Below, in pieces: positions 9,071 through 15,823 of a DNA stretch of 33,734 nt; within the stretch, counting starts at the first letter, position 1, and the number at the start of each line of letters is the position of its first letter. Source of the stretch: Eremomyces bilateralis CBS 781.70 (taxonomy: Eukaryota; Ascomycota; Dothideomycetes; Eremomycetales; Eremomycetaceae); the NCBI RefSeq assembly GCF_010015585.1, contig NW_022985113.1:1-33734 (forward strand). The letters run 5' to 3'. The notes under the pieces were generated by a model. The model ran no database searches and was not told the origin of the DNA. It saw only the letters and a program-made list of their open reading frames with translations. The position numbers and the translations under genes were made by a program.

Positions 9071-10143
9071 GTTGGAATTGGACTGTATGACTCGGATAGA
9101 GTATGGATATGGAAATACCGATTACGGCAGTGCTGGAAAGGTTAAGATACGGGGGACTCAGGCGTCGCCCAAAATGCAACCGGACCGAAGACTGCGACGG
9201 AACTGGGGAGGAATGAAGATAGGACAGAGCAAAAGATAGAGACATGGTTACGGTATGTGATGATTACCGGTATGGCAGAAAGAACCATGAGCCGAATGGA
9301 TGGATGCTCTTGCTCTTATCCAGCTGGCAGCAGTGTGATAAACCAGTGTGAAGTATGATTCTAGGAAGGTTCGAGGAACCTGCCATGGTGATATTTCTGG
9401 TTCATTACTTGAAGCGCTGAGCAAGTCTTGGAGCTTGCGCTGTCAGATCTGATGTTAATAGCGATACGTGGTTATTTCTATCTAATGTAGTTGTTGAGAA
9501 AATTGTGTGCCATGCTTGAGGTTGAATTGGATCATGACGATGCAACAGTTCTCGGCCTGCTAGAAGTTCGAATGGACAGGGGCTCTGCCTGCCGAGTTCC
9601 GGGCAAGCCTTATGCCCTTGTTGCCTTATCGGGACCCCCCGCCACGATCTGCGCTTACATTGGCTGGCAACGTGAGGACAAGGTTCCTTACTTTGATCGC
9701 ACCACCACTTCACCACCATCCTCACACCACCGATCCTCCTCCTCCCACCAGACCTATCATCACTCATCAAGAGATGCCAATTAACAATCCATGTCGGTTC
9801 CTGCTGCCGGCCATGGAGCCGAAATGTTGCACCTGGCACCACCATCACCTGAGTTGTGTCCTACTGTAGTCTGGGGGAGTGTAAGTCTTTTCGATGCCCG
9901 TCCACCTGATCGCCGCATCCGGAGCCGCGAAAAGGCTACGGAATGGGTCGATGGACGTTTCTACGTATGGTATATAAACCTCTCTCTACATGTCCGTGTA
10001 TTCAGCCTCTCCATCTCCACTCCAGTGTACAAACAAGCAACGTGACCATTCACCAAACAACGTCTCCTCTCAACTGTCACAACATATAATCAACCTCTCT
10101 CCTCACCCAAACCACCAACACACCCCCCTCCCCCCTACACACA
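9071..10143. other. Divergent intergenic region before the small TM protein gene
   Basis: This 1.07 kb region holds the promoters of the 7643-9070 gene (minus) and the 10144 gene (plus). The largest open frame, 9405-9848 minus, has no recognisable similarity. A TATA box is visible at 9971. The last 120 bp before 10144 are rich in C, A and T with almost no G, as in 5' UTRs of well-expressed fungal genes. Confidence 0.5.
9971..9978 (+). promoter_or_regulatory. TATA box of the 10144 gene
   Basis: TATATAAA lies 166 bp upstream of the ATG at 10144 and is followed by a CT-rich stretch. A clear TATA box with a long pyrimidine-rich leader suggests strong or regulated expression. It is a motif-based call. 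Confidence 0.55.
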
Positions 10144-10371
10144 ATGGCCTCAAGAACTCCCATCATGCGCCTCGTCGCTTCCGCCCGCTCCTACCTCACC
10201 GAAGCCCATCCCATGGCTCGCATGCCCGTCACCACCCGCGCCCACGCCCTCAACACCTCCAAATATTTCCGCCGCGCCGGCCGCACCACCGCCGCATTAC
10301 TCATCGCCATGCCCGTCCTCCTCGGCTGGCCGATCGCCGCCGCCTCCATGCTCAAACGAACCGGGATCTGA
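10144..10371 (+). CDS. Small basic single-TM protein, possibly mitochondrial; frame continues past its TGA
   Basis: The frame encodes 75 residues from the ATG in an AC-rich leader (ACACAATGG). The first 45 residues are basic with almost no acidic residue (SRTPIMRLVASARSYL..., YFRRAGRTT), like a mitochondrial presequence. A hydrophobic helix follows (about 50-68, ALLIAMPVLLGWPIAAASM). It resembles small conserved fungal proteins of unknown function as I remember them, but I cannot name it. Codons strongly favour C in third position. The stop is TGA at 10369-10371 in the context ATC TGA CTC. The same frame then stays open for 68 more codons to 10578. No intron with a plausible donor removes the TGA. 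Confidence 0.7.
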   Translation: MASRTPIMRLVASARSYLTEAHPMARMPVTTRAHALNTSKYFRRAGRTTAALLIAMPVLLGWPIAAASMLKRTGI

Positions 10372-10578
10372 CTCCATGGCCCGGCGTGGGGCTTGTCGAA
10401 GGCGCTGCTGGTTATGGTGGAGGGGTTGGGGGTATCGGGGGAGGACGCCGATGTCGTAAGACGGGGGAGGCCGTGGGAGATTACCGGAATGTCGGATTGG
10501 GATTTGAGGAGGGCGATAGAGCAGGCGGAGGATGCGAGGGTGGTGGTCGAGATGATGGGGAGGGATTTTGGGGAATGA
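10372..10578 (+). other. In-frame coding-like extension after the TGA (possible read-through or broken C-terminal half)
   Basis: After the TGA at 10369 the same frame runs 68 codons to a TGA at 10576. By my count 53 of 68 codons end in G or C, mostly G. The translation looks like a folded protein: LSKALLVMVEGLG, GRPWEITGMSDWDLRR and AIEQAEDARVVVEMMGRDFGE. An in-frame ATG at 10414 could instead begin a separate 54-residue frame. Explanations are stop read-through giving a 144-residue protein, a recent nonsense mutation, an assembly error, or an independent small ORF. The C-terminus (DFGE) is not a peroxisomal PTS1. Confidence 0.5.
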
Positions 10579-11120
10579 TATATGGGTTTGGGAAAGCATG
10601 CATGGCAATCGGAGTTTATGGTGACGGAAAGGCATGTCTGTCGGCAGGAACTGGACTTCTTCTCGGTTCTCATCGAATTTAGAACCATTGGGAAATTCCT
10701 GGTATGACGCTTGTCGTTGGAGGTTGGGATCTACTGTATATAGGTATCCCGTTTCAATCCTTCGAATAATGAAGAATATTGATGAATCTTGGATCCATTT
10801 CCCGTCGTGATTCTTTTTGACCTAGCAAAGTAGACTCCTTAAAGCTGGAGGCGGTCGTCGATCACCAGCACGCCTCCGTCGTTGCGTATCTTGAATGCCG
10901 TACTAAGCCTCGTCATTACATTCGCTTGTTTCATCGGAGCTTGAGTGTGTTGGTGAACAGGCGATGCGCATCTCTCAATGGCTTTGCGGTCGAGTGTCTT
11001 GGAAGCCCTTTATCCTCTTGTATAGTTGATATTGACCGTCGCATCGAGTCGTGCCTGGCTCATCTATACCGTAGGCGAAGCTCCATCGATCACATTTTCG
11101 TCCCGGTCGCAATCGATCGC
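10579..11120. other. Convergent intergenic region
   Basis: This is the space between the end of the 10144 frame and the stop of TRM7, and should contain both 3' UTRs. Open frames here (for example 10926-11129) are short and unlike known proteins. I see nothing else. Confidence 0.5.
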
Positions 11121-13142: not shown

Positions 13143-13479
13143 CGTGAATCTATAGAAGAGTTTTGTGAGATATGGGATAGACTATGGGTTATAGGGTGAT
13201 ATCATCGTCTATAAATTTTTATTCTAACCAGGGAGTAACAATGGATGTGAGAATGAGGAACTACTGAGCGTCGTCGAGTCTCTAGTAGAAATTCAAACTG
13301 GAAATTTTACGCGGAGCAGGGTCCGTGCGCCCGGCTAAACTTGAAAGAATGAAAGTTGAAGCAGAAGAGTTGAGGCACCCCAATGAAATTTATTTCTCGA
13401 CATATTTCCGTCATCTTGAACTTTGAAACAAGAACCCGAATTTCAAGAGCGCCCTGCGTTCGTCGACTCTCCAATAAAC
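13143..13479. promoter_or_regulatory. Shared divergent promoter of TRM7 and MAK5
   Basis: 337 bp separate the two start codons, so both genes must be driven from here. The region has AT-rich runs (AAATTTTTATT near 13214, GGAAATTTTACG near 13301) that partly resemble the RRPE element of yeast ribosome-biogenesis genes, but the match is weak. Both products act in RNA maturation, which would suit co-regulation. Confidence 0.5.
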
Positions 13480-15823
13480 ATGACGACCTTAGAAGGCAAG
13501 AAGCGAAAGCTTCCGCCGAAGGTTGCAGCCATGCTCGCACGTAAACGCATGAAACTTCAACCCGGATCCTCCACTACGCCGAAAGTCACAGCGAACGAAC
13601 CGCGACCTTCGAGCGAGCTACGTGAGCGAGGCAAGACTGTGAGGCTGGATCAGCTGAAATGGAAGGAGGTAGAACTGCCCGATCGTTTGGACGACTATGA
13701 GGGTTTCTTCGGGTTAGAAGAAGTCGACGATGTGGAAATTGTTCGAGATGCTGCCGCCAGCACCTTGACTTATAAGACACATACCGAGAACATCCTTTCA
13801 GATAGGGAGCGACAAGAACTTCAGAAGCAGAAGCAGAAACCACCGCATGAAGATTATGAAGATAAGGATGTCAATGAGGAAAGTCCACCGCCTGATGCTG
13901 CCGGCGATGATGAAGAAGAAGAAGAAGAAAAAGCCGAAGTCGACAACGAAGAAGAGTGGGGTGGCTTCGACTCAGATTCTGCAGAGGACAATGACATGGA
14001 AGCGGACGAGAATACTGGTGACTTTGGGATAAACCCATTCCAGGGTTTAGTGGAAGAGTCTTTGGATGCTAGTAACGGCGTTGATGTCAGCGCATGGGCG
14101 CAGCTCCAGCTCTCCCAAGATTCGTTAGCTTCATTATCCCGATTGGGCTTTGCGAAGCCGACAGCAATTCAGGAATTATCCATCCCTGAGATAATGGCTG
14201 GCCGTGATGTCATTGGAAAAGCCTCCACAGGTTCTGGCAAGACGCTCGCATTTGGCATACCTATTTTCGAGCGAATCCTCGGCCAATCCACCGGCGACGA
14301 GCATCCCGAAACCGAAACTCCAAGCGAAGAACACACCCCTACTGCCTTGGTACTATCGCCTACGAGAGAACTCGCACACCAAATTACCAAACATCTTCAG
14401 CTATTGGCCTCGGGCGTCCCGAACCGCACCATACGTGTCGTGCCAGTAACGGGAGGCCTCTCGATCCAGAAGCAACGTCGCTTACTGTCAAACGCTGACA
14501 TAGTCGTCGGGACTCCCGGCAGAATGTGGGAAGTCATGGGTGATAGCAATGGTGTCATTGACCAGCTGAAACGCATTTCATTCCTGGTCGTGGACGAAGC
14601 GGACCGACTGCTCAGTGAAGGGCACTTCAAAGAAGTGGAAGATATCTTGGATTCGCTCGACAAGAGCACAGATGAAAATGAGACCGTCTCGCAAGAATCG
14701 ACCCGTCAGACCCTGGTCTTTTCCGCGACGTTCCACAAAGGACTGCAGCAGCGACTGAAAGGGAGCAAAAAGAGAGATACACGATTCCTAGACCCAAAGG
14801 AGTCGATGGAGTATCTAATCAAGAAACTCAGGTTTAAAGAAGAGCGGCCGAAATTTTTGGACGCGAATCCAGAGGAACAAATGGCGGAGAATCTGAAAGA
14901 GGGAGTGTTGGAATGCCCGGCGATGGAGAAGGTAGCTGCCACTGCTCTCACTCAAATTCAAATCTCTAACATCATCACAGGACCTATATCTATACGCTAC
15001 TCTGCTCTTGAATTCGTCCAAACGGACAATCGTCTTCTCGAATAGTATTCACGCTGTTCGCCGAGTGACAGCCTCCTTGCAAGCGCTGAATCAACCAGCT
15101 GTAGCTCTCCATTCCCACATGCCTCAAAAGGCGCGTTTGCGCTCCCTTGAACGATTCGCAGCAGCCGGCGCGAACTCAAAGTCCGCCGCTCGATCAATCC
15201 TAATCGCCACCGACGTGGCAGCACGCGGTCTCGATATCCCAGACACGGAAACCATCATTCACTACCATGTTCCTCAGACAGCCGACTTCTACGTTCATCG
15301 GTCCGGGCGGACGGCCCGTGCCGGTGCGAATGGGAAGTCAATCATGCTCTGCAGCCCTGAAGAAGTAGGCGGGGTACGCCGATTGATCCACAAGGTGCAT
15401 CCGAACAGCAAGTCCGCCATTCGCTCGCTCGGCATTGACCGACGACTGGTGGGGAAACTGAAGGGGCGATTGACGCTGGCGCAGAAGATCGCGAACGCGG
15501 AACTCAGCAACGCGAAGGAGAAGGTGAATGACTCGTGGGTCGATCAAGCGAAAGAAGACCTGGGGATTGACAGTGAAGAAGAGCGAGATTGGGCGGAGAA
15601 GGAGGGTAGAGGTCGTGGGTGGCAGAAGAGTGAGAAGTCGAAGGTCGGCTCGGCGGAGCTGAAAAGTTTCCGGAGGGAGCTTAAAGCTTTGCTTCAAACG
15701 AAGATCAATACGGGCTTTAGTGAACGGTATCCCACTACAGGGGATATGGATATTGAGGAGTTGAAGCGGGGGCTGCATGGTGACTTCATTGGAAAGGTTC
15801 CTAATCTGGAGTGGAATTCCTAG
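13480..15823 (+). CDS. MAK5: DEAD-box ATP-dependent RNA helicase MAK5
   Basis: Mak5 is a nucleolar helicase needed for 60S ribosomal subunit assembly. Exons 13480-14931 and 14981-15823 join over a 49-bp intron to give 764 residues, close to other fungal Mak5 proteins. The lysine-rich start (LEGKKRKLPPKVAAMLARKRMKL) resembles a nuclear signal. An acidic region (about 125-185, DDEEEEEEKAE) precedes the helicase core. Motifs seen are the Q motif (GFAKPTAIQ), ASTGSGKT at 248-255, PTREL at 294-298, TPGR, DEAD at 372-375, SATF for motif III, TIVFSNS for motif IV, ATDVAARGLD for motif V and HRSGRTARAG at 590. The splice restores EKDLYLYATLLLNSSKRTIVF. The first ATG in the frame is 13480. Confidence 0.96.

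Follow-up and report, generated by a model that had tools for sequence, protein, structure and literature searches.

The ATG at position 10144 opens a 75-residue frame that ends at a TGA, past which the same frame stays open for 68 codons (the CTC after the stop included), and the whole is most likely a single frame of about 144 codons cut by one stop. It lies in the window, the whole stretch of DNA analysed (bases 1–33734 of the 49,368-base contig C47), from the 26.6 Mb genome of Eremomyces bilateralis. The extension is coding-type sequence beyond chance, in the same frame and on the same strand as the first part. The preliminary description had correctly placed the 75 and 68 residues, the TGA CTC and the final stop at 10576–10578, and its count of 53 codons ending in G or C among the 68 of the extension was exact (45 G and 8 C). 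The original observation is confirmed and, with the controls used here, is firmer than first stated.

Table 1. Features at and around the interrupted frame (positions are those of the window).
Feature	Position	Strand	Basis
TATATAAA with a C/T-rich leader behind it, likely sense promoter	9971..9978	+	read in sequence
75-codon first part	10144..10368	+	basic N-terminus, one hydrophobic stretch, pI 12.0
In-frame TGA, then CTC	10369..10371	+	read in sequence
68-codon coding-like extension	10372..10575	+	open frame, coding scores
TGA ending the extended frame	10576..10578	+	read in sequence
165-codon antisense open frame, considered to shadow the sense frame	10191..10688	-	coding scores

The 100 nt upstream of the sense ATG are 65% C+T, and the corresponding stretches upstream of two antisense ATGs reach 51% and 47%. 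The only hydrophobic stretch of the first part is LLIAMPVLLGWPIAAASML, at residues 52–70. With the N-terminal model, the first part scores 42.9 bits in the sense frame, the highest of the six frames, and its amino-acid composition is unusual (-3.4 bits). The extension is acidic (pI 4.7) and has no clear membrane segment, its highest 19-residue hydropathy being 1.15. An inverted duplication of the first half was also sought, and no inverted repeat of at least 12 nt was found in 10080–10700.

Coding signal past the stop

Coding character was scored with codon-phased second-order models trained on 97 open reading frames whose stop-to-stop length is at least 200 codons, drawn from the window and another 250 kb of this genome, with 9850–10760 masked; with the C-terminal model, the reference frames were scored leave-one-out. 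Some of the 97 reference ends are exon ends or false frames rather than true gene ends. The control made of equal-length stretches past the reference stops is, if anything, a harder one, because these stretches may themselves hold some coding sequence.

The C-terminal model gives the extension 36.0 bits in the frame of the gene, and 27.0 and -18.9 bits in the other two sense frames. None of the 97 post-stop stretches scores as high (their maximum is 13.2), and 11 of the 97 stretches formed by the last 68 codons of the reference frames do so (median 17.9). The general model places the extension at the median of the reference ends with 12.5 bits (49/97 at least equal it), a value that two of the 97 post-stop stretches also reach. 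Only 3 of 5000 dinucleotide shuffles of the extension match its coding score. The frame structure that it carries beyond its own dinucleotides (z = 2.47) is close to the median of true ends (2.53) and is attained by no post-stop stretch (0/97; 95th percentile 1.92).

The signal runs on through the stop. The 13 codons before the TGA score 7.0, 6.2 and 1.4 bits with the N-terminal, general and C-terminal models, respectively, and the 10 codons after it (10372–10401), which are weakly coding, score 0.8, 2.5 and 2.9 bits, so that the codons flanking the TGA are above zero on both sides in all three models. The coding signal ends at 10574 with the C-terminal model or at 10552 with the general model, and not at 10371.

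Nonsense change, base error and readthrough

To one gene of about 144 codons interrupted at codon 76, either by a nonsense change or by a base error in the assembly, we assign roughly an even chance. The original gene would have been a single frame, cut at codon 76 by a single nonsense change or, in the assembly, by a wrong base; its product would be a small membrane protein with one span, a basic N-terminus and an acidic tail at the C-terminus. A true stop in the cell would leave a protein of 75 residues, and UGA CUC may leak to some extent. We infer that the stop is a local rather than a conserved change, and likewise the place and role of the protein.

A nonsense change or base error is favoured because readthrough is rare and the signal downstream of the stop has full strength, comparable in both score and z to that of normal gene ends. 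Recent nonsense substitutions and sequencing errors are named as confounders that mimic readthrough in the account given in PMC5100048, and the present locus resembles them in its single stop, its full-strength coding signature downstream and its origin in one genome. In that account, however, such confounders were excluded or subtracted by means of related species, whereas the E. bilateralis locus was studied in a single genome. If the stop is a nonsense change or an error, the locus would be a further case in which one genome's coding signature downstream of a stop does not separate these causes from readthrough, and mechanical annotation would list a truncated 75-residue protein.

Two points count against a nonsense change or error. 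Of all single-base nonsense changes that could arise in the 97 reference frames, only 1.5% (transitions weighted 3:1) would create TGA CT, a figure that speaks for readthrough instead, and the locus shows no sign of long decay, since its 144 codons contain no stop other than the TGA at 10369.

Functional readthrough, the main rival, in which a near-cognate tRNA would decode the UGA in a leaky UGA CUC context and yield a minority product with the acidic 68-residue tail, and hence two isoforms of the membrane protein, is possible but in our judgement less likely; this weight and the one given to a nonsense change or error are judgements and not computed posteriors. In Ustilago maydis, UGA followed by CU is reported to be sufficient for efficient readthrough, with the largest effect coming from the first two bases after the stop (PMC4207609), and this is the context found at 10369. 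It is also a scarce one, with TGA CT ending one of the 97 reference frames, and the extension that it precedes is strongly coding in frame. The preliminary description had proposed readthrough at a leaky stop, with two merged units as the other possibility. Two parts of its proposal stand, namely a coding extension that shares frame and strand with the first part, and a UGA CU context that has been tested as leaky in a fungus; the third-base switch, which it offered as a hint of two units, is not supported in that role (see below).

The rest of the context is less suitable. The best readthrough contexts described in PMC4207609 have A and then G at the third and fourth following bases, and C occupies both positions here. 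In mammalian cells, the highest readthrough levels reported in PMC12233894 occur with A or G just before the stop, but the base preceding the TGA is C. The 120 nt past the stop show no excess of RNA structure (z -0.13; an equally good fold is reached by 88 of 200 shuffles), which counts against readthrough, a downstream stimulating structure being present in some readthrough cases and not a defining trait. By eye, the extended C-terminus (GRDFGE) lacks a peroxisomal signal, although the fungal cases compared carry one. Furthermore, for two insect clades the coding signal of readthrough regions is described as being, on average, intermediate between first open reading frames and non-coding sequence (PMC5100048), whereas that of the extension shows no weakening relative to normal gene ends. 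The same source indicates that none of the non-Pancrustacean genomes it tested appears to have abundant readthrough, and the prior for readthrough outside Pancrustacea is accordingly low.

The locus is thus similar to the fungal UGA CU(A) peroxisomal isoforms (Stiebler et al. 2014, PMC4207609) in having UGA followed by CU, a same-frame extension and a nuclear gene. It differs from the cases described there in the third following base (C) and in its 68-codon extension, in which no PTS1 is seen by eye. Tentatively, readthrough of UGA CUC might provide a small one-pass, probably organellar, membrane protein with an optional acidic tail of 68 residues, a non-peroxisomal isoform of domain length from a fungal nuclear gene. 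If so, fungal readthrough would no longer be confined to tails carrying peroxisomal signals, in the cases compared, but would also supply a membrane protein with an entire tail domain.

Untranslated sequence, merged units, introns and editing

It is improbable that the native protein is the 75-residue form, followed by an ordinary 3' untranslated region that happens to be coding-like by chance. The short frame is complete with its membrane segment, and the openness of the following 68 codons is unremarkable at such a composition, being reproduced in 327 of 5000 shuffles; at least 68 open codons follow 6 of the 97 reference stops. The amino-acid composition of the extension (3.9 bits) agrees mildly with that of reference ends (median 4.6) and lies within the post-stop 95th percentile (4.5), and the two post-stop stretches that match it with the general model are in keeping with chance. 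Nevertheless, no post-stop stretch reaches its C-terminal score or its z, and the score is rarely equalled by shuffling. In addition, the G+C content falls from 0.627 to 0.436 past the TGA at 10576–10578, with no such drop past 10371.

The proposal of two units, with the extension as the start of an antisense gene or as a small reinitiated frame from the ATG at 10414, is still less probable. The 165-codon antisense frame is open, and the extension scores 29.9 bits there with the N-terminal model; this frame also looks coding because its third positions face the sense third positions. The sense score of the extension exceeds the antisense score by 6.1, a lead reached by 67 of the 97 true sense ends and by none of the 34 antisense controls kept (the other 63 of the 97 were dropped, as they had no open sense frame). 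Over both halves, with the TGA excluded, the sense frame totals 78.9 bits vs 58.4 for the antisense frame. The upstream part of the latter is not coding-like, its first 110 nt scoring -1.7 bits (N-terminal model) and -5.6 bits (general model), and it has no C/T-rich leader. The sense strand is favoured. As for reinitiation, the ATG at 10414 carries G at -3 and +4 (by eye), and the codons preceding it at 10372–10401 score only weakly as coding (0.8 to 2.9 bits), so that the case against a start at this ATG is an argued one.

A second sense frame, at 9978–10682, is open for more than 230 codons over the same gene and becomes Gly-rich past the TGA. Its scores before and after the stop are 23.8 and 27.0 bits, vs 42.9 and 36.0 for the frame of the gene, and it is judged to be a shadow.

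The third bases had also been read as a sign of two merged units. C ends 53 of the 75 codons of the first part and G ends 45 of the 68 codons of the extension, a shift matched in size by only 3 of the 97 reference frames. However, the same upward shift in skew (G3-C3) is seen in 74 of the 97, the median moving from -0.114 in codons 21–90 to +0.114 in the last 70. When frames are counted from their first ATG, 54 of 75 shift upward, and one of these 75 frames is, at both ends, as extreme as the gene at 10144. Moreover, the best switch point is the codon at 10381, three codons into the extension, and a switch exactly at the TGA is 3.24 nats worse. The switch fits a strong form of a general trend within the reference genes; it suits one gene and is a poor argument for two. 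Such within-gene shifts weaken one argument for calling loci of this kind two merged units. A literature search by title gave nothing on point about them, and they are not claimed to be unpublished.

Along the 97 reference frames, the third bases themselves change from the early codons to the last 70, with C3 falling from 0.376 to 0.243 and G3 rising from 0.229 to 0.381.

Very little weight is given to splicing, by which an unusual intron would remove the TGA and leave one frame in the mature mRNA. The TGA lies within a branch-point word, CTGAC (CTRAY at 10368), with an in-frame AG at 10401; there are 13 in-frame GT-AG pairings of 40–250 nt, and an 87-nt in-frame GT-AAG stretch (10315–10401) spans the stop. 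Its donor would be GTCCTC, which is followed by branch- and acceptor-like sequence at a frequency of 0.029, as against 0.079 for all GT words. The interval from 10144 to the TGA holds three GT dinucleotides, each of them GTC; besides GTCCTC these are GTCGCT and GTCACC, at 0.087 and 0.076, while GTAAGT reaches 0.32; the test is a noisy one, with two other GTC words among its top 14. The single GC donor candidate before the TGA, CTC|GCATGC, is weak. The earlier statement that no good intron donor precedes the stop is therefore upheld by sequence, with three GTC sites near or below average and one weak GC site. Furthermore, the part of the supposed intron before the stop, 10315–10368, encodes most of the membrane segment and is coding-like (10.1, 8.2 and 0.8 bits with the N-terminal, general and C-terminal models).

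A survey of about 284 kb yielded 458 in-frame stops preceded by 60 or more open codons and followed by 50 or more. Coding thresholds were passed on both sides by 38 of them, eight of which had a sense sum above the antisense sum, and four of the 458 remained under the further demand that the frame score highest of all six both before and after the stop. By eye, three of the four have ordinary explanations: an intron over the stop in two cases (GTAAGT and GTACCT), and in the third a gene that starts in another frame and has a GTACGT intron. The TGA at 10369 is alone among these strict survivors in lacking an ordinary explanation.

Elsewhere in the window, an ordinary-looking intron is seen by eye at 14932–14980 (donor GTAGCT, branch CTAAC, acceptor CAG); it would link two DEAD-box helicase frames, 13423–15045 and 15008–15823.

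Finally, RNA editing, in which A-to-I conversion in fruiting bodies would turn the premature stop into a Trp codon, is hardly credible here. There is precedent, since some filamentous ascomycetes do correct premature stops in this way, and the Fusarium genes described in PMC11156358 likewise have a stop inside an otherwise normal coding frame. According to the same source, the editing has a strong preference for an A that is preceded by U, and the stops it corrects are UAG, as in Fusarium, whereas the stop at 10369 is UGA, a poor match because its A follows G. The range given there comprises Sordariomycetes and one member of Pezizomycetes, such editing not having been identified in Aspergillus nidulans or Botrytis cinerea (PMC11156358).

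Identity of the protein

The basic N-terminus and the one membrane span suggest an organellar membrane protein, possibly a mitochondrial one. Single-sequence structure prediction gave a mean pLDDT of 43.1, which says nothing. Searches with either half found no family in Pfam or NCBIfam at E values up to 10, and in its own genome each half matches itself alone, without a paralogue. Pattern searches of the viral_contigs set returned 27 and 26 stretches for the two halves, and those of the genome_contigs set returned 116 for the 144-codon reading and 455 for the extension; none was confirmed in either set.

In PDB, the extension had no match and the first part had one, over 26 residues of chain 6gcs_j (E 0.82), which we take to be the complex I subunit NUUM of Yarrowia. 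An NDUFB4/NUUM identity of the first part was considered and rejected. Besides the weakness of this match, a 25-residue NDUFB4 stretch of chain 7zm7_j, presumably from Chaetomium, matches another locus of the same genome, C13:320759 (E 0.013, 48%), and gives no alignment with the protein encoded at 10144. The Yarrowia stretch of 6gcs_j found no match in the genome, which shows nothing either way, and a search with PF07225, also without a match in the genome, was uninformative, as it missed the controls too.

The C13 locus, at 320759–320833 (L030 1477 onward), is itself the likely NDUFB4 of this genome (MSVNRYKYFRWTPRTFGLTLLYVAIIPFGIGYVAYKTD...), and it is possibly a first exon that runs on into a 151-codon open frame.
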